Assembly (NCBI GenBank): GCA_947446575.1
Contig: CANFHC010000011.1
Location: 1-64,000, forward strand
DNA: 64,000 bases
Origin: Bacteriovoracaceae bacterium
GTDB taxonomy: Bacteria > Bdellovibrionota > Bacteriovoracia > Bacteriovoracales > Bacteriovoracaceae
Direction of reading: 5' to 3'
Shown: one piece after another, positions 39,476 through 46,952 of the stretch
Layout of the letters: each line of letters begins with the position of its first letter
Position numbering within the stretch: the stretch's first letter is position 1
Translations under genes and position numbers: made by a program
Notes under the pieces: generated by a model
What the model was told of the DNA's origin: nothing
The model's input: only the letters and a program-made list of their open reading frames with translations
The model's database searches: none

Positions 39476-40204
39476 ATGAAAAAAATATCGTTTTTGTTAT
39501 TAATTCTTACCAGTCTAAACCTATACGCCGAAAGTAATACTTTTGTTCAATTGGAAGGCTCCTTGCTATATCAAACTCGAAACGTTCAGCGAATACCGGG
39601 CAATGGTGGTACGCAATTTGATTTAAGTGATTTTAAGCAAGGGGCATTTGAAGCCACCAGATTATATTTGGGAAAAATTTTTAATGACCGCCATGAATGG
39701 CGCTTATTATATGCTCCGCTTGAAATTGATTTAAAAGCGACACTACCGGGAACCGTTCAATTCAATGGACAAACTTTTAATGCTGGAGCAGCCGATGCCT
39801 ATTATAAATTTAATTCTTATCGTCTGACTTATGCTTATCACTATAAGCCTATTCAGGAATGGAAATTAGCCCTGGGGGCAACAGCAAAGATTCGCGAGGC
39901 GGAAGTTAAACTAAGCCAAAGAGGAGTTGTTTCAAGCAAAAAAAACACTGGTTTTGTTCCATTGTTAAATTTTCAGGCAATTCGTCCAATTGCTGAAGAT
40001 TGGAACTTTCGATTTGACTTCGATGGTCTCGCAGCTCCCCAAGGGCGTGCATTTGATATCTCAACGCTCGTTGAATATAAGTCTCAAAAACATTTTTCGA
40101 TTTTAGCAGGCTATCGGATGCTTGAAGGTGGAGCCGATAATGATAAGGTTTACAACTTCGCTTTTCTTCATTATGCGACCGTGGGTTTAAGGGGCGATTT
40201 TTAA
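39476..40204 (+). CDS. Outer-membrane beta-barrel protein
   Basis: The 242-residue product has a signal peptide ending in LYA (about 18), then alternating amphipathic strands (FVQLEGSLLYQT, TRLYLGKIF, EWRLLYAPLEIDL, YRLTYAYHYKP, WKLALGATAKIREA) and ends with a C-terminal Phe (LRGDF), the signature for insertion by the BAM machinery. About ten strands can be counted, compatible with a small barrel of 8-10 strands. No closer family is recognised. The ACTT tract and TATAAT-like box upstream (39333-39389) suggest variable expression. A second copy of the repeat lies about 170 bp after the stop. Confidence 0.75.
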   Translation: MKKISFLLLILTSLNLYAESNTFVQLEGSLLYQTRNVQRIPGNGGTQFDLSDFKQGAFEATRLYLGKIFNDRHEWRLLYAPLEIDLKATLPGTVQFNGQTFNAGAADAYYKFNSYRLTYAYHYKPIQEWKLALGATAKIREAEVKLSQRGVVSSKKNTGFVPLLNFQAIRPIAEDWNFRFDFDGLAAPQGRAFDISTLVEYKSQKHFSILAGYRMLEGGADNDKVYNFAFLHYATVGLRGDF

Positions 40205-40542
40205 TAATCCTTTATTTTGGGTCCAGCATGCTTGTCGGGACACAATGTTCCCATAAAGGTATGTTGGAACGTAGCTTCGATAAAAAATATTGATCATAAA
40301 GATAAAAGAAAAACAAAAGAGCCAAGAAGACCATAGGAACAATTAGAACAACATTTAGAAAAAATTTAAATACTTAATTCACCCCCTTTAGAGAAAACAG
40401 ACAATCGCTTCTGCTCATGTCTGCATACATCACATCCTGTGAATAAAGGAATGCCTTCAGACACTCTGATAATTTTCTAGAGGTCACTTTTAAAAAAATC
40501 TGGTTAGAATGGAACTTATTTACTTAAGAGTACGAAATAGAA
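40205..40542. other. Intergenic region carrying repeat copy B
   Basis: This 338-bp gap between convergent genes has no good reading frame. Its last 150 bp are copy B of the dispersed repeat (40374-40526). A possible short hairpin near 40228-40250 (GTCGGGACACAATGTTCCC) could serve as a weak end for the outer-membrane gene. Confidence 0.5.
40374..40526 (+). repeat. Dispersed repeat, copy B
   Basis: This copy aligns to 39203-39363 with scattered changes but keeps CACATCCTGTGAATAAAGGA, the CACTCTGATAATTTT block and AAAATCTGGTTAGAATG; the -10-like box is TAGAAT instead of TATAAT and the ACTT stretch has only one clean unit plus TTTACTTAAG. It is about 1.17 kb from copy A in the same orientation, with the outer-membrane gene between them. 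Confidence 0.85.
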
Positions 40543-41253
40543 TTAAGGAATTGATCCCACCCAAGTCTCTTGCAAAGTGGAAACTTGTGTTCCTGAGCAA
40601 GGTGTATTTTGGATGCGGACTTTTTCAACCCCAACATACTTGGCCCCTAACTGTGAAGCATCAGTTGCAATTTTAATTTCTTCGGAATTTAATGGATTAA
40701 ATGATCCTTTGGAATCTTTTAGTCTCGTAGTAATTTGAACCGTCTCATATTTATCAGCACTCACTAAAAAAGCTACAGTAAAAAGTTTATCCCCAACAAT
40801 ATTTGAGTTTGAGACATCTTTAGCTGTGTTACCTGCATCGAGCATGACTTTGCAAATTGCAGAAAGTGCAGATGTTTTTTCGGTCACAACATCAGTAATA
40901 TAATTTATCGTTGTACTGTACTCTAAATCCGTCCCTGCCAAAACGATAGGGAACGTCTGTTTGCTGGTTTCTGTGGATTTATTATTACAATCATTTCTTT
41001 GAACATTAAAAGTATAAGCAATACTTCCAGCATGTGTGATTAGACTATTTCTTTTCGTTTGAAGAGATGTACAGATGTGAGTAGCAATTAGAATTTCAGT
41101 TGCCGTAAGAGAATGCTGAGTTGGTTCTTCGAGACCGCCAATTCCTTTAAAAATATTTTTTAAAGAGACACCCGCTCGCTGATCGCGCAACTTTCCACAT
41201 CCTGAACTCAGGACAAGAAAACTCATGGCCGAAATAAACAAAAAATTTTTCAT
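40543..41253 (-). CDS. Lipoprotein of unknown function
   Basis: The 236-residue precursor has a type II signal peptide with lipobox LSSGC and the modified Cys at residue 19. The mature part has repeated cysteines (HICTSL, RNDCNN, AICKVM, TPCSGT), four in all, and beta-rich segments such as FTVAFLVSADKYETVQITTRL. I recognise no family. The start lies about 167 bp downstream, on the minus strand, of a repeat fragment at 41421-41456. It is transcribed toward copy B of the repeat and may be anchored to the outer membrane. Confidence 0.68.
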   Translation of the reverse strand: MKNFLFISAMSFLVLSSGCGKLRDQRAGVSLKNIFKGIGGLEEPTQHSLTATEILIATHICTSLQTKRNSLITHAGSIAYTFNVQRNDCNNKSTETSKQTFPIVLAGTDLEYSTTINYITDVVTEKTSALSAICKVMLDAGNTAKDVSNSNIVGDKLFTVAFLVSADKYETVQITTRLKDSKGSFNPLNSEEIKIATDASQLGAKYVGVEKVRIQNTPCSGTQVSTLQETWVGSIP

Positions 41254-41420
41254 AAGCTTAATTTTAACCTAACTAAGCAGTTCCTTGGAAGATATTGTAA
41301 AAATTACTTGTATTTTCTAAAGGTCATTGAGGTTTTGTACGCATCAGTGGCGCCTTTTTTAATACTGGGAGCGCCTAACTGCTGATTTCTCATCACAGAC
41401 CATAAAGTTTTGAAGCATAG

Positions 41421-41456
41421 AAAATCTGGTTATAATGAAATTAACTTACTTATTTA
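41421..41456 (+). repeat. Fragment of the dispersed repeat
   Basis: AAAATCTGGTTATAATGAAA followed by TTAACTTACTTATTTA repeats the right end of copy A, including the TATAAT box (41431-41436) and two ACTT-like units. It is 168 bp upstream of the lipoprotein start but on the opposite strand, so it does not drive that gene directly. Confidence 0.7.
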
Positions 41457-41627
41457 GAATTTTTCCTACATTTTTTAAATTCTTTGGATTAACAATTTCA
41501 ACTTTGAGTTCGTTATAAACCTCATTCAATTGTTTCGAAATTTTTATCGACTCATTTCTAATTCTCTCCAGAAAAATTCCTAGAGATTGGAGTAATTTGG
41601 CTTAAATTAACTTAAATGTTAATTATG

Positions 41628-41662
41628 CAAAAAAAAAGGGAGACCTAAATCTCCCTTCTTTT
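41628..41662 (-). terminator. Intrinsic terminator of ssb
   Basis: AAGGGAGA (41636-41643) and TCTCCCTT (41650-41657) form an 8-bp stem with a 6-base loop; on the minus strand it is followed by a run of eight or nine Ts. It is about 85 bp after the ssb stop. The other side also has CTTCTTTTT, so it may work in both directions. Confidence 0.85.
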
Positions 41663-41723
41663 TGTAATTTGAATTGTTGCTAATTAAGCAAATTGCCCGC
41701 TCTTTCGCTCTTGCCTTTCGCGT

Positions 41724-41743
41724 GCACACATCACATCCTGTGA
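41724..41743 (+). repeat. 20-bp fragment of the dispersed repeat at the ssb end
   Basis: The sequence at 41724-41743 (GCACACATCACATCCTGTGA) is identical over 20 bases to 39251-39270 in copy A and nearly so to 40423-40442 in copy B. It holds the hairpin TCACA-tcc-TGTGA and ends at the ssb stop codon. Confidence 0.8.
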
Positions 41744-42202
41744 CTAAAACGGAATATCGTCAGCTGTAAAATTTGTATCAGTCGAAATGTCATACTCTTG
41801 ATTTACCATGCTTGATTCATAAGATGGTGCAGCTCCAGCGCCTTGAGAATTTGATTTCTCAGCTCCAGTTGATGCTTGTCCACCAATGAACTGAACAGTC
41901 TTTGCATTGATTTCTGTCGTATAACGTTTTTGTCCACTCTTGTCGTCCCATGAACGAGTTTGAAGGGATCCTTCGATGAATGCTTGTCTTCCTTTCGTAA
42001 GATATTGGTTACAAAGCTCAGCAAGTTTTCCCCAAACAACAATTCTATGCCATTCAGTTCTTTCTTGTTTTTGTCCTGCTTTGTCTGCCCAAGACTCGCT
42101 TGTTGCTAGAGTAAAATTACAAACTGCCATTCCACCTGGAGTGTATTTCAACTCTGGATCTTGCCCAAGACGGCCAAGGATAATAACTTTGTTTACGCTC
42201 AT
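41744..42202 (-). CDS. ssb: Single-stranded DNA-binding protein
   Basis: The 152-residue protein begins with the OB-fold signature [20 protein letters not shown] and [14 protein letters not shown], followed by [13 protein letters not shown] and the tip residues of strands 4-5. After a Gly/Ser/Gln-rich linker it ends with DDIPF, the acidic C-terminal tip used to recruit DNA-replication and repair partners. It binds single-stranded DNA as a tetramer. A 9-bp inverted repeat lies 25 bp upstream and a terminator follows. GGGAGATCTCT gives its ribosome site. It should be transcribed alone. Confidence 0.96.
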
Positions 42203-42226
42203 TAGAGATCTCCCTTTGTTTATTCA

Positions 42227-42256
42227 CAGTAAGTGCATCGATTTAAACTTACTGTT
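42227..42256. promoter_or_regulatory. 9-bp inverted repeat upstream of ssb
   Basis: ACAGTAAGT (42227-42235) and ACTTACTGT (42248-42256) are a perfect 9-bp inverted pair separated by 12 bp, 25 bp before the ssb start. It could be an operator or an mRNA hairpin. It is not a clear LexA box of the TTAC-N3-GTAA type known from Bdellovibrio. Confidence 0.45.
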
Positions 42257-42364
42257 ACCTGATTAATTTAGTTTTATGTTGCAACATTAAAGCTAAATTC
42301 CTAAGAGCAAAAGGATAATTTTCTGACAAAATATAAGCGGTGAATTTATTAGATCTGCTTAGCG

Positions 42365-42748
42365 TTAAAGCTTCGATTTTTGATCGACAAGCCCCTGTTT
42401 CTGCACCCAGAAATCCTTAACTAGTTGGCGCGCCACTTTTACATCGCGTTTATACCAAGTCGCATCGAAACCACAATGAGGACATGAAATTTGTTTTTTG
42501 TAATCTGTGCGCACTGCAAGCTCAAAAATCCCCCAAACAACGAAGAAAACAAAAAAACACTTAACTCCGATGAATGGAAAGAGCGCACTACCTAAAACAA
42601 TGGCAGTTAAAAAAATTTGAAACATATTTTTTTTAGTGAGTCTTGGAGATGTAGTAATTCCTCTTTCTGTACTACAGAGAGGACAAAAGAAAGTACTCGA
42701 CTTGTTTTTGTATTTATAAACTCGGCTGACTAATGGTTTTTTACTCAC
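42365..42748 (-). CDS. Zinc-ribbon membrane protein of unknown function
   Basis: The 127-residue protein has two cysteine pairs, FFCPLCSTERG (about residues 21-26) and SCPHCGFD (about 88-93), that would form one zinc ribbon from both sides of a membrane segment, and between them two hydrophobic helices (MFQIFLTAIVLGSALFPFIGVKCFFVFFVVWGIFELAV). No family name is recognised. Both Cys pairs are thus predicted to be on the same side, presumably cytoplasmic. It ends 160 bp before ssb, on the same strand. Confidence 0.72.
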   Translation of the reverse strand: MSKKPLVSRVYKYKNKSSTFFCPLCSTERGITTSPRLTKKNMFQIFLTAIVLGSALFPFIGVKCFFVFFVVWGIFELAVRTDYKKQISCPHCGFDATWYKRDVKVARQLVKDFWVQKQGLVDQKSKL

Positions 42749-42921
42749 GGATTCTCCTACTCTCTATTATAGCGATAGATCGAGCCAATAGAGAATCGGG
42801 GTGATTTTTTCCGATTAAAATCCACTTGTGAAAATGCAAAGGTGTCATTATCAAACTTAATTCAACTATTTTAAAAGTGATGATACTTGCTAGAAAATTT
42901 CTTGAGAATTTAAGAAGTTTT

Positions 42922-42977
42922 CTAGTGGGTGAAGGGAGGAACCGCAAACCAACCCGGTATCACACCCACTAGTTTTT
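42922..42977 (+). ncRNA. Candidate short structured RNA with terminator-like stem
   Basis: CTAGTGGGTG (42922-42931) and CACCCACTAG (42963-42972) form a perfect 10-bp outer stem enclosing a 31-base internal part, and TTTTTAAA follows at 42973. On the plus strand this is terminator-like; the internal sequence (GGAACCGCAAACC...) is unusual for a plain terminator. It resembles no riboswitch class I can name. Confidence 0.35.
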
Positions 42978-43032
42978 AAATCTTAGCATAAACACAGTAG
43001 GTATCAACCGAGTAATAAACTACAATAATTTG

Positions 43033-43165
43033 ATGATAGTTTTCTTAGTGGCTGCGAAACTATTTTGGGTGATGGCACCTACTGGTGGGCGAGCCAGGAC
43101 CCCCGCGAGTCCTGGTGATTGAAAGTTCAGTCTGGAGTGCGAAGCACATTGAGGGTGGTAGTGAT
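43033..43165 (+). ncRNA. Candidate structured non-coding RNA
   Basis: The stretch shows a series of hairpins in an AT-rich genome: TAGTTT/AAACTA around 43036-43060, CACC-tact-GGTG near 43076-43088, CCAGGAC (43094-43100) with GTCCTGG (43109-43115) around an 8-base loop, and GTGC-gaa-GCAC near 43138-43148. A TACAAT box lies just upstream (43021-43026). I compared it by eye with tmRNA, RNase P, 6S and SRP RNA signatures and found no match. Confidence 0.35.
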
Positions 43166-43290
43166 GTGATTGCCGAAATACAACAAACGGACTGCTAATC
43201 TAGACTCGACTCTCTAGAACTAACTTTATCAACTTCAAGTACCGTACCAAGTTCATAGGACCAGTGTAGGACCAGATTTCAATGAATTGT

Positions 43291-43319
43291 TTGACCTTGA
43301 AAATCCCCTTCGGTAGCAT
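43291..43319 (+). promoter_or_regulatory. Promoter-like TTGACC-17-TAGCAT before the Tad-domain gene
   Basis: TTGACC (43291-43296) and TAGCAT (43314-43319) are separated by 17 bp. The -10 box is 38 bp before the GTG start of the Tad-domain protein, giving a leader of about 30 bases with AGGA near 43348. Confidence 0.5.
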
Positions 43320-43356
43320 TGAGACACCTCTATTGATTTTTTGGGATTAGGATCTA

Positions 43357-46080
43357 GTGATTAAAGGTAACCGCGGCCAATTAAGTATCTTCATGGGCAT
43401 CACTCTTATTATTGTAATGGGAATGCTTGCTTTCATTATCAATGTTGGATTGTTCGTAAAAGCTAAAATTAACTTACAAAATGCGACCGATGCTGCTGCC
43501 TTTGCAGGAGCTGCGGTTCAAGCACGCCAGCTTACCAATATTGCCTATGCCAATTGGGAACTTAGAAATACTTACAAAGAATGGATGTTTAAATATTATA
43601 TTCTTGGGCAATTGGGGCTCTTCTCTACTCAGAACCCCGTTCCAAATCCGTTGCAAACTTCAAAAATTTCTGGCAAACAAAAAGTTAGTTTTCAAATTCC
43701 TACTCCGCAAATTGCAGGGCTAAGACAAGATCAATTTGATAAATACAATCTTCCTTCGATTTGTATTCATAATAACGCCAAAACAAATGTGTGCGCGATT
43801 TACGCACTTCCCGGGATTCCACGCTTTGATTCAATTGGTATTGCTGGTATTTCTGAAATTCATGAAGCGTTCGTTGATAAACTCGTTGAAGAAAAAGGAA
43901 AGGATTGTTCAAAAAGAAGTAAGCTTAATTATCTAACTGCTCTGACTTGGGCATTTGGTGCTGGAGGAAGTGGACCCGCTGATGAAGAAGCACCACTTGT
44001 TGCAACTAATCGTCCAGGAGCATGGCCTGAGTCAGTTGAGCTCGCTATTAGAATTAGAAATTTAGAAATGATTGTGAATCGCCCAGCAATCGCTGATATC
44101 AATAGATCAAACGTCGATCAACTAAGTGATCAAGCACCAGAAATTGGATTTAACGAGCGCCCTGTAAAAGCTTACTGGTCTGCATATAGAAATCTTGGTG
44201 GTGGAAAGTATAAAGACGGCAACACCGACGGCAGTGGTGGCAAAACAAAAGATAGTTTCACTTTTGACTTTTCATTGACTGAACTTCCTCCTACTGCCTT
44301 TAATGCTAAAGCAAATGGTGATAGTGTTTCATCGTTTCTTATTCCCGATACTGCTGTTTATCCCTCGGGCTCAGGAAGTCCTTTAAATAAACAATATCTT
44401 GATTTGCAATTGATGCCCGTTAATTACGCTACACTATTTTCTACATTTGTTGATATGGCCCAATTCAACACTGCTATCGGAGTGCAATCAGAAGCAACTT
44501 GTGGAGTTTCAAAAACAGCTATGCCGGTTCCAGGATACATTTTAGGATTCAATAAAAATCCGGAAGTCATCACCTACTACGCTGTCAAAGGTGAGAGTAA
44601 ATTCGTGGGATTATTTTTTCCAATAAATGGAGAGAAAAAAGATGGATTTAAACTAACTGCTTACGCTGCAGCCAAACCATTTGGTGGAAGAATCGGTCCG
44701 AAGTTGTTTACTTATGTTGATGGTCAAACTGTACGAGCGAGAAATGATGTTAATAAAAAATCTTCTCCTTATGTCAGTGGATTAAAAATGGATATTATGT
44801 CTCCGGCCGGATTTGAGCCGGGAATGCCGATTCCCCCATTTGCTAGTTTTTGGGATGACTCTCATGCTGTTATTGGTGGAGTTCCCGGAACTGGAAATCC
44901 TAATCCGACTTTCGGTATTCCCAATATGATTTATGATTTTGAAGATGCTGCTGATCTCAATGTTCAAAGTCAAAGCAGTGAAGAAGTGCAAACAATTGTT
45001 CCTCAGGCCATTGCGGGTACTGCCACTGCGGAAACTTTAGGAATGTATCATTCTCCTCAATTGCGATTACTCAAAGAAAGTATCGGGCCTATTACGCCAG
45101 GGACTTCTATGACAGGTGATTCTGTTTTTAGAGCTATTATCAGGGCAAGAAGACCTACTCGATACGATGCTATGAACTATCTCATTCCCGATTTTCGCGA
45201 AGTAAATAACAAAGGAAATGCAGCTCCGTTTATTCAAAAATTACGGCAAATTCCCAACGCTGATCAAAGTTTTAGTTATAAACTATTTGCTCCTCTGTTG
45301 GGACCAAACCTCCTTTATAAAAATGCCAATGATGTTGAATCTGTCATCAATGTGTATTTAAGATTAAATGAGCCAGCAGTTAAAACTTATGTTGGTGCTC
45401 TTTTAAAAGTGGCCAATGGAATTCTTGCAAATGCCACTAAAACAGGAACAAATACGAACCTAGAAGCGGCCCGCTCAATTCATGCCAATGCCGGCACTGG
45501 TCCAGATGAACCTGCCCTCTTGATTGAAGCACCTCCTGGAGATCCAGGGTGCAAGAATGATATTGCTTCGAAATTTTTTCATTTTTTTAGAGCAGAAAAA
45601 ACGGGTTGTGGAATTGTTCCTCTTCGCAAAATGATGATCAATTTTATTGCAGATAGAAGTAAGAATGAAAATGGGTTAAACCGGGCCATGTACTATGAAG
45701 GCTTTTATTACAATGATCCGAATTCTTCACTTATGCTCACTCAAGATCAAGTTATGAGTGCTTATTTTCCAGGAGTAAGGCAAGGAGTCTCTCCCCAAGG
45801 TGTTGCTGAGCATCCATTAAAGCTGGCGGCCGGCTCAGATAGTTATTCTGCGAGACGTAATTATTATTCTACTAAGTTTTTCCAAATGGCCAAATTGATC
45901 GATTCTCCGCCCGTCACAAGGACCAGTACTCGTGGAAAGGCTGATTATGAGGCTGAACCGGCGTTAAGAGAGAGCAATGTAACAGTTCCTCAGGACTTAC
46001 AGAACAATATCAGTATCCGAAACTCGCTCAAATATGATGCGTCTACTGGCATTAATAATATTTACTATCTCGATTTTTAA
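43357..46080 (+). CDS. Tad-domain (TadE/G-like) protein, 907 residues
   Basis: The N-terminus (GNRGQLSIFMGITLIIVMGMLAFIINVG, then DAAAFAGAAVQARQL) is the Flp-pilus-associated Tad domain: a single membrane helix followed by a Glu/Asp-Ala-rich start of the mature chain, as in TadE, TadF and TadG pseudopilins. The remaining 850 residues are periplasmic, Asn/Pro/Gly-rich and beta-rich, with cysteines (SICIH, VCAIY, GCKND, GCGIV) and no recognised domain. It starts with GTG at 43357 after AGGA. No other tad/flp gene is in the window, so this is an orphan or the tip of a longer distance system. It could be a surface structure or minor pilin; which one cannot be said. Confidence 0.75.
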   Translation: MIKGNRGQLSIFMGITLIIVMGMLAFIINVGLFVKAKINLQNATDAAAFAGAAVQARQLTNIAYANWELRNTYKEWMFKYYILGQLGLFSTQNPVPNPLQTSKISGKQKVSFQIPTPQIAGLRQDQFDKYNLPSICIHNNAKTNVCAIYALPGIPRFDSIGIAGISEIHEAFVDKLVEEKGKDCSKRSKLNYLTALTWAFGAGGSGPADEEAPLVATNRPGAWPESVELAIRIRNLEMIVNRPAIADINRSNVDQLSDQAPEIGFNERPVKAYWSAYRNLGGGKYKDGNTDGSGGKTKDSFTFDFSLTELPPTAFNAKANGDSVSSFLIPDTAVYPSGSGSPLNKQYLDLQLMPVNYATLFSTFVDMAQFNTAIGVQSEATCGVSKTAMPVPGYILGFNKNPEVITYYAVKGESKFVGLFFPINGEKKDGFKLTAYAAAKPFGGRIGPKLFTYVDGQTVRARNDVNKKSSPYVSGLKMDIMSPAGFEPGMPIPPFASFWDDSHAVIGGVPGTGNPNPTFGIPNMIYDFEDAADLNVQSQSSEEVQTIVPQAIAGTATAETLGMYHSPQLRLLKESIGPITPGTSMTGDSVFRAIIRARRPTRYDAMNYLIPDFREVNNKGNAAPFIQKLRQIPNADQSFSYKLFAPLLGPNLLYKNANDVESVINVYLRLNEPAVKTYVGALLKVANGILANATKTGTNTNLEAARSIHANAGTGPDEPALLIEAPPGDPGCKNDIASKFFHFFRAEKTGCGIVPLRKMMINFIADRSKNENGLNRAMYYEGFYYNDPNSSLMLTQDQVMSAYFPGVRQGVSPQGVAEHPLKLAAGSDSYSARRNYYSTKFFQMAKLIDSPPVTRTSTRGKADYEAEPALRESNVTVPQDLQNNISIRNSLKYDASTGINNIYYLDF

Positions 46081-46172: not shown

Positions 46173-46952
46173 GTGGCAAAAAAACCAGTTAAAAAAGCTC
46201 CTGCTAAAAAACCAGCAGCGAAGATTGCACCAGCAAAAAAAGCAGCTACGGCAAAAAAGCCAGCAGCAAAAAAAGCTCCTGCTAAAAAAGCAACACCTGT
46301 AAAAAAGGCGGCTGCTAAAAAGCCAGTTGCAAAAAAAGCTGCTCCAGCAAAAAAACCAGTTGCAAAAAAAGCAGCTCCAGCGAAAAAGCCAGTGGCGAAC
46401 AAAGCAGCTCCGGCAAAAAAAGTTGTAGCGAAAAAAGCAGTTGTAGCTAAATCTGCTCCCGCTAAAAAAGTGGTAGCGAAAGCCGTTCCTTCTAAAAAGG
46501 ATTCATCGCCTAAAACTCTTTCAAGAGAAGAAGCGATCAAAAAATATAAGAGTTCACATGTTGAACCAGTAAAAGCTAAGTCTAAAACAAAATCAAAAGC
46601 TGCTCCAATTCTTGATGATGAAGATGAAGAGTTTGACTTGGAGGTTGATCTTCTCGATGAAGAAGATGATGCTGAAACAGTTGATCAAGCTATGGGTGAT
46701 GAAGACTTCGTTGATGACGAAGATGAAGAAGGACCTGTTGGAAGTCGTTTTCCTGCTGAAGAATTCGATCCAGATGAAGATGAAGAAGTTAAAGCAGAAG
46801 GCTCATATTCTTATGGATGGGGTTATAACGATGCTTTCGATAAACCAGAAGATGTCGATTTAGATAATGATTTAGACGAAGACGCTCAATATGCCTTCGG
46901 AAAAAAATCAGCTGACGAAGACGATAGCTTCGATGATGATGATGATTACTAA
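46173..46952 (+). CDS. Bipolar Lys/Ala/Pro-rich protein with acidic C-terminus
   Basis: The 259-residue product has a first half (1-115) of repeating [11 protein letters not shown]-type units with about 40% Lys, closely like histone H1 C-terminal tails and the bacterial H1-like proteins (AlgP, Hc1). From residue 145 the composition switches to strongly acidic ([20 protein letters not shown]..., and a final [12 protein letters not shown]) with a central aromatic patch [12 protein letters not shown]. The basic half should bind DNA, RNA or polyphosphate; the acidic half could neutralise it or bind a partner. The change of composition within one reading frame excludes a simple homopolymer artefact. 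It has its own promoter and terminator. Confidence 0.75.

Follow-up and report, generated by a model that had tools for sequence, protein, structure and literature searches.

The window analysed here, a stretch of 64,000 nucleotides from the draft genome of a Bacteriovoracaceae bacterium, carries a gene for a single-strand DNA-binding protein (SSB), a gene for a small Zn-ribbon-like protein, referred to as p127, and, in divergent orientation, a TadE/G-like gene. In the intergenic region between p127 and the TadE/G-like gene we found two structured elements, A and B; for each of them, the minus strand gives the better reading (Table 1). In p127, CPxC-type cysteine pairs flank a hydrophobic middle part, and the gene is kept beside SSB across the family. 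Inverted repeats at 41630-41663 and 42265-42299 flank the SSB gene, the first of which looks like the SSB terminator. Additionally, the plus strand encodes a histone H1-like protein (46173-46952) that is rich in lysine and alanine and acidic in its C-terminal half; it stays under the curated cut-offs of H1-like models.

Table 1 Features of the locus and the evidence for each; positions are those of the window.
Feature	Position	Strand	Basis and remarks
SSB gene	41744..42202	-	PF00436
p127, small Zn-ribbon-like protein gene, downstream of element B	42365..42748	-	no Pfam family; sub-threshold Zn-ribbon models
Element A copy	42883..43012	-	promoter-like TTGATA/TAAGAT 43007-42980, hairpin 42972-42922; R3 matches, stem covariation
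Element B, predicted RNA to end of conserved tail CTCGCC	43088..43223	-	R1 and R2 matches; start assumed 10 nt after box
Element B, GC-rich 3' hairpin CCAGGAC/GTCCTGG	43094..43115	-	covarying pairs; terminator-like in relatives, no T-run here
Element B, small hairpin GTGC/GCAC	43137..43147	-	read from alignment A1, no statistics; GCGC/GCGC in L013
Element B, pseudoknot 3' strand TTCGGC	43172..43177	-	covariation tests
Element B, conserved G-N-ACGTT-N-G-N-TG, here GTCCGTTTGTTG	43181..43192	-	one departure here: C for conserved A of ACG
Element B, hairpin P1, arms TCTAGA 43218-43213 and 43204-43199	43199..43218	-	pairing 98.4%, 6/6 pairs changed on both sides
Element B, pseudoknot 5' strand GTCGAG in P1 loop	43205..43210	-	covariation tests
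Element B, promoter-like box TTGGTACGGTACTTGAA	43234..43250	-	sigma-54 geometry GG-N10-G, A at -12; GG and TTG invariant, fixed spacing in 45/45 loci; putative promoter
Divergent promoter of TadE/G-like gene, TTGACC-17-TAGCAT	43291..43319	+	promoter scan and conservation
TadE/G-like gene	43357..46080	+	PF13400

An earlier note on this DNA had marked 42922-43170 as a GC-rich hairpin island and a likely functional RNA. The composition agrees with this description: among the 150-base bins of 40000-46000, the one at 43075-43224 has a GC content of 0.52, and all others have 0.25-0.49. We also recovered the perfect 10-bp stem that had been described (CTAGTGGGTG at 42922-42931 and CACCCACTAG at 42963-42972, followed by TTTTT at 42973-42977) and the CCAGGAC/GTCCTGG arms at 43094-43100 and 43109-43115. 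Although the hairpins are real, the proposed interval merges two unrelated elements, one at 42883-43012 (element A) and one at about 43088-43250 (element B). Two of the four hairpins proposed at 43033-43165, CCAGGAC/GTCCTGG and the small GTGC/GCAC, are part of element B; the others are not, and the segment 43033-43087 is not conserved among the 13 aligned loci of the genus. The TACAAT box thought to precede these hairpins is present at 43021-43026, but it is not the promoter of the RNA; it lies on the plus strand and is not conserved in the same 13 loci. The extent of the RNA has to be revised as well: element B occupies the minus strand up to ~43250, and the covarying pseudoknot that forms its main structure (43172-43218) falls just outside the earlier interval. 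In single-sequence folding, the first hairpin stretch stood out against its shuffles (z -3.0; matched by 2 of 200), and the second was unremarkable on either strand (z -0.87 with 33 of 200 shuffles as good on the plus strand; z -1.19 with 27 of 200 on the minus strand). It is the comparison with relatives only, and not single-sequence folding, that makes the second stretch significant.

In a BLAST search with 42860-43356 against 57 genomes, the part from 43088 onwards proved conserved in 13 of the 14 genomes of the genus, this genome included, and no other genus was matched at BLAST sensitivity. A covariance model built from the 13 genus loci (R1) matched 44 of 115 family genomes with one copy each, covering 21 of 48 genera. 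Within the order, a model of the core of element B (R2) found 85 of 129 genomes, again in single copy, from 28 of 48 genera. When R2 was applied to a sample of the phylum, 67 of 290 genomes matched, 66 of which belong to the same family; the sole match outside it (G151, 68 nt, E 5.8e-4) was treated as chance.

For the comparative analysis, we used 45 loci, 13 of the genus and 32 of other genera. According to tblastn, the TadE/G-like gene adjoins element B in 44 of these (all but L065) and p127 in 43 (all but L007 and L012), and SSB is found nearby in 41 (all but L007, L012, L051, and L069); the L007 and L012 loci stop at a contig edge. The TadE/G-like gene was also present in 19 of 20 genomes without an R2 match. 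At a laxer threshold, the RNA was detected in the same place in eight of these 19 loci (E up to 0.01), was absent in ten, and was cut off in one; the GG-N8-TTG of the promoter-like box is kept in all eight recovered loci, as judged by eye. Searching via the TadE/G protein gave 80 loci of named relatives, which overlap with the genome sample and 67 of which are matched by R2. Carriers among the 80 include Bacteriovorax sp. BSW11_IV, DB6_IX, and Halobacteriovorax marinus 36_234_T64.

Read along the minus strand, element B consists of a TTGG-N-AC-N5-TTGAA box, a linker of 8-16 nt, the hairpin P1, a pseudoknot, a variable stretch, and the GC-rich hairpin. The 3' part of the P1 loop pairs past the conserved G-N-ACGTT-N-G-N-TG, and the core of element B is a predicted H-type pseudoknot, in which a hairpin loop pairs downstream of this conserved segment. 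In 39 of the 45 loci, UCC or CCC occurs at most 8 nt past the pseudoknot. In the 38 loci that have a T-rich tail, the predicted RNA measures 123-146 nt, counted from the assumed start through the GC-rich hairpin.

Covariation in the aligned relatives, which had been named as a check on the island, was found for both P1 and the pseudoknot. The arms of P1 pair in 98.4% of cells in alignment A5 and 99.1% in A7, both of which were fitted to P1, compared to 24-52% in slid controls, and all six pairs show changes on both sides. A MAFFT alignment (A4) misplaced P1, and a block alignment was therefore made, which kept 31 of the 45 loci and left out eight near-duplicates of the genus and six loci with unfitting spacing (L051, L053, L064, L066, L070, and L074). 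For the pseudoknot, a first test on 36 diverse loci gave a complementarity sum of 543 versus 414 ± 14.7 with permuted partners (best of 20,000 permutations 477), a comparison in which the observed value was favoured because loops were chosen jointly with the pairing. A second test used 31 sequences outside the 45 (67 rows, of which 35 already used and one duplicate or anchorless were set aside) and took the loops from a model that knew only P1, hence without the bias of the first; it gave 423 versus 336 ± 12.8 (best of 20,000 permutations 393), where the sequences are related and the permutation result is thus not a probability.

Under symmetric scoring, the pseudoknot pairs read on the minus strand include 22 G.U and 0 A.C among 261. 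The pairs of P1 (5 G.U versus 4 A.C) leave the strand undecided, and the search for the 3' hairpin was noisy (49 G.U versus 29 A.C). RNAalifold on the 13 genus loci yielded -28.8 (covariation -2.7) for the minus strand compared to -22.6 (-0.9) for the plus strand. We assigned element B to the minus strand because of the G.U pairs without A.C in the pseudoknot and the better RNAalifold result. On this strand evidence, and because the conserved part of the plus strand reads as a promoter, we rejected the idea that element B is a leader of the TadE/G-like gene on the plus strand. Judged by the comparison of relatives, element B has a defined structure and strand, one copy per genome, and a fixed locus.

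The box upstream of the predicted RNA carries GG at -24 with a fixed spacing to TTG in 45 of 45 loci. At -12, where a sigma-54 promoter has C (TTGC), we found A in 24, T in 6, C in 4, and G in 2 of 36 diverse loci; because this position is mostly not C, we call the box sigma-54-like only. The pattern TTGGYAY-N5-TTGMW has 18 matches in this genome versus 9 for a reversed control, and four of the 18 lie outside ORFs of at least 100 aa, namely element B and three that end in TTGCT. The sigma factor gene rpoN was found in this genome and, irrespective of whether they carry the RNA, in 28 of the 29 family genomes examined. It was not found in the draft of G034, although G034 carries the RNA (L107). 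A correlation of rpoN with the RNA is uninformative, since genomes without the RNA have rpoN too. We also considered a FliA-type promoter, as many P1 loops contain CCGA. Where this CCGA changes, however, its pairing partner changes too, so that we read it as RNA structure. At the other end, a T-rich tail (four T in eight within 15 nt, determined by script) follows the GC-rich hairpin in 38 of 45 loci, the exceptions being the copy of this genome, L002, L007, L045, L050, L056, and L074. A generic terminator scan of 42200-43500 found no terminator.

No family of Rfam 15, 6S and SRP RNA included, matched the 64 kb at gathering threshold. In a permissive search of the window, the best match was mir-3938 (E 0.017, 24.6 of 94 bits), located in the region of element A, and 16 relatives' loci gave three sub-threshold matches, one of which, to tmRNA, reached 20.6 of 47 bits and lies outside element B (L055:2842-2985). 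All of these are far below threshold and evidently due to chance. Together with the conservation in relatives, this upholds the earlier view of a structured RNA outside the named families. A divergent tmRNA was considered because no tmRNA scores over the cut-off in this genome. Element B does not match RF00023, and we dropped the idea since an ordinary tmRNA over the cut-off is present elsewhere in 9 of 13 genus genomes. Its lack in this 95% complete draft (G000) is probably due to an assembly gap. RNase P RNA (RF00010) is likewise not matched by element B, and its gene sits at G000:C44:4202-4524 (215.9 bits). By reasoning only, we rejected a base pairing between the loop of the 3' hairpin and the CUCGCC tail, for which no linker would remain to span the stem. 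Regarding coding potential, a closed sense ORF of at least 20 aa occurs within 160 nt in 23 of 45 loci, and no reading frame common to several genera was seen by eye in the 45 loci. A search for a phage or plasmid origin of element B found no match. In the open-access literature searched, we found no small RNAs of Bacteriovorax or Halobacteriovorax. We regard element B as a new family within a known kind of RNA.

We propose, with a probability of roughly 0.55, that the minus strand of element B encodes a small non-coding RNA as a unit of its own, which most likely acts in trans; its transcription, promoter type, trans action, and targets are here inferred. Element B would diverge from the TadE/G-like gene, and transcription would start right after the TTGG-N-AC-N5-TTGAA box. 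The 5' end would fold into the H-type pseudoknot by pairing of the P1 loop with a segment that lies 14-21 nt beyond P1, with the conserved G-N-ACGUU-N-G-N-UG in the connecting loop and the UCC(C) stretch directly after the pseudoknot. The RNA would end at the GC-rich hairpin, which resembles a rho-independent terminator in most relatives. In such an RNA, the pseudoknot may act as a 5' cap, while target mRNAs might be paired in trans by those conserved segments that stay exposed. Trans action on mRNAs is a default guess and not a result. For the start regions of its own neighbours, the only three candidates tried, permutations reached duplex energies as good as the observed ones in a fraction of 0.044 for SSB (34 loci), 0.65 for p127 (33 loci), and 0.76 for TadG (35 loci), and none of them gave a convincing pairing signal.

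Pseudoknot aptamers have their conserved letters in and beside the pseudoknot. The conserved letters of element B are located likewise, and element B might bind a protein or a ligand as a decoy, sponge, or sensor, with the conserved connecting loop as the binding site. The standalone terminator-like hairpin in most relatives would fit such a role, and Bdellovibrio has a standalone c-di-GMP-riboswitch RNA, merRNA (PMC3627812). However, known aptamers give no match in Rfam, and the ligand or protein partner is putative; we regard this role as possible but rather unlikely. It is a doubtful and speculative step further to see in element B the founding ligand- or protein-binding pseudoknot RNA of its kind, which would work on its own as a sensor or decoy in the Bacteriovoracaceae life cycle, would be the counterpart of merRNA, and would be transcribed from a box of sigma-54 geometry with a changed -12 base.

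The neighbourhood of p127 raises the question of a cis-acting leader, a riboswitch or attenuator in which pseudoknot aptamer, terminator, and gene would follow each other. Indeed, p127 is encoded on the same strand as element B in all 43 loci measured, and the loci in which p127 was not found (L118, L120, and L121) lack the RNA too. Yet the distance from the RNA core to the start of p127 ranges from 134 to 2028 nt in these 43 loci, and p127 is preceded by its own -10-like box, which scores at least 6 in 46% of loci versus 9% in shuffles; furthermore, seven loci have p127 without the RNA. A leader function is hence unlikely in our view. That the region acts solely as regulatory DNA of the divergent genes, with no RNA made, would be in line with the conserved block taking in the divergent TadE/G promoter and with the unremarkable folding of the single sequence; given the compensatory changes in P1 and the pseudoknot and the presence of G.U without A.C in the latter, we consider it very improbable. 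Element B is a candidate small RNA that is conserved over much of the family, in single copy and at a fixed locus, with a structure backed by compensatory change, so that its structure, putative promoter, and partners are open to direct tests. It would give access to RNA-based regulation in Bacteriovoracaceae, a mostly uncultured and partly predatory family.

Several known RNAs resemble element B in description. The Qrr RNAs of Vibrio are sigma-54-dependent sRNAs; like them, element B would be a short standalone RNA behind a GG-N10 box, with a putative terminator and probable trans action. It differs from them by the mostly A at -12, the single copy, and the 5' pseudoknot. In Staphylococcus aureus, for example, sRNAs with a UCCC motif pair with ribosome-binding sites. 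The UCC(C) of element B, present in 39 of 45 loci, also comes after a structured 5' part, but here the motif follows a pseudoknot and its target is only putative. The preQ1 and SAM-II riboswitches are H-type pseudoknots, in which, as in element B, a hairpin loop pairs downstream and the connecting loop is conserved; in contrast to them, element B has no Rfam match, and p127 has its own promoter-like box. The attack-phase sRNAs of Bdellovibrio bacteriovorus and merRNA are, like element B, intergenic structured RNAs, although of distantly related bacteria, and merRNA also works outside a leader. The authors state that these RNAs have no homologues outside Bdellovibrio and that the promoters of the attack-phase sRNAs are mostly of the FliA-type TTAAG-N16-CCGATA (PMC3627812), unlike the TTGG-N-AC-N5-TTGAA box of element B. 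Moreover, merRNA holds a c-di-GMP riboswitch, whereas Rfam finds none in element B.

Element A is a separate dispersed element beside element B and unrelated to it. Its hairpin has a loop of the UUUGCAGG type (GCGG in this copy), followed by AGAAAACUUC and AAAUUCU. The covariance model of element A (R3) yielded 48 matches in 12 of 37 genomes, five of them in this genome and 11 in G005; 11 of the 14 genus genomes were matched, and G020 gave two weak matches. The copies (L208-L243) are partly clustered (G005:C80 and G005:C158). In the outer stem, eight of ten pairs show changes on both sides (41 matches, 38 distinct, in an alignment fitted to the model). The genes downstream of the copies are mostly unrelated, the only protein links being SSB in three orthologous loci and the pair L217 and L227, which we read as thymidylate synthase. 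With five copies here and up to 11 in G005, element A has the dispersed copies of a mobile repeat (MITE/REP). It resembles REP/MITE repeats or multi-copy sRNAs as a multi-copy hairpin with mostly unrelated neighbours, but differs in its conserved promoter-like pair and its long conserved unpaired parts. Element A may be a multi-copy sRNA or a mobile repeat.

The divergent promoter of the TadE/G-like gene is itself a conserved feature of the locus. At least 9 of 12 positions of TTGACC/TAGCAT match in 38 of 45 loci, with a spacing of 17 in 34 and of 18 in 4 loci, the hexamers having been picked after seeing the data. The region 43291-43335 on the plus strand is unusually conserved including the spacer (GGCTCCAG in many other genera), and a conserved TGAGACAC or TAAGACAC follows TAGCAT. 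This conservation suggests that a putative regulator is bound at the promoter.
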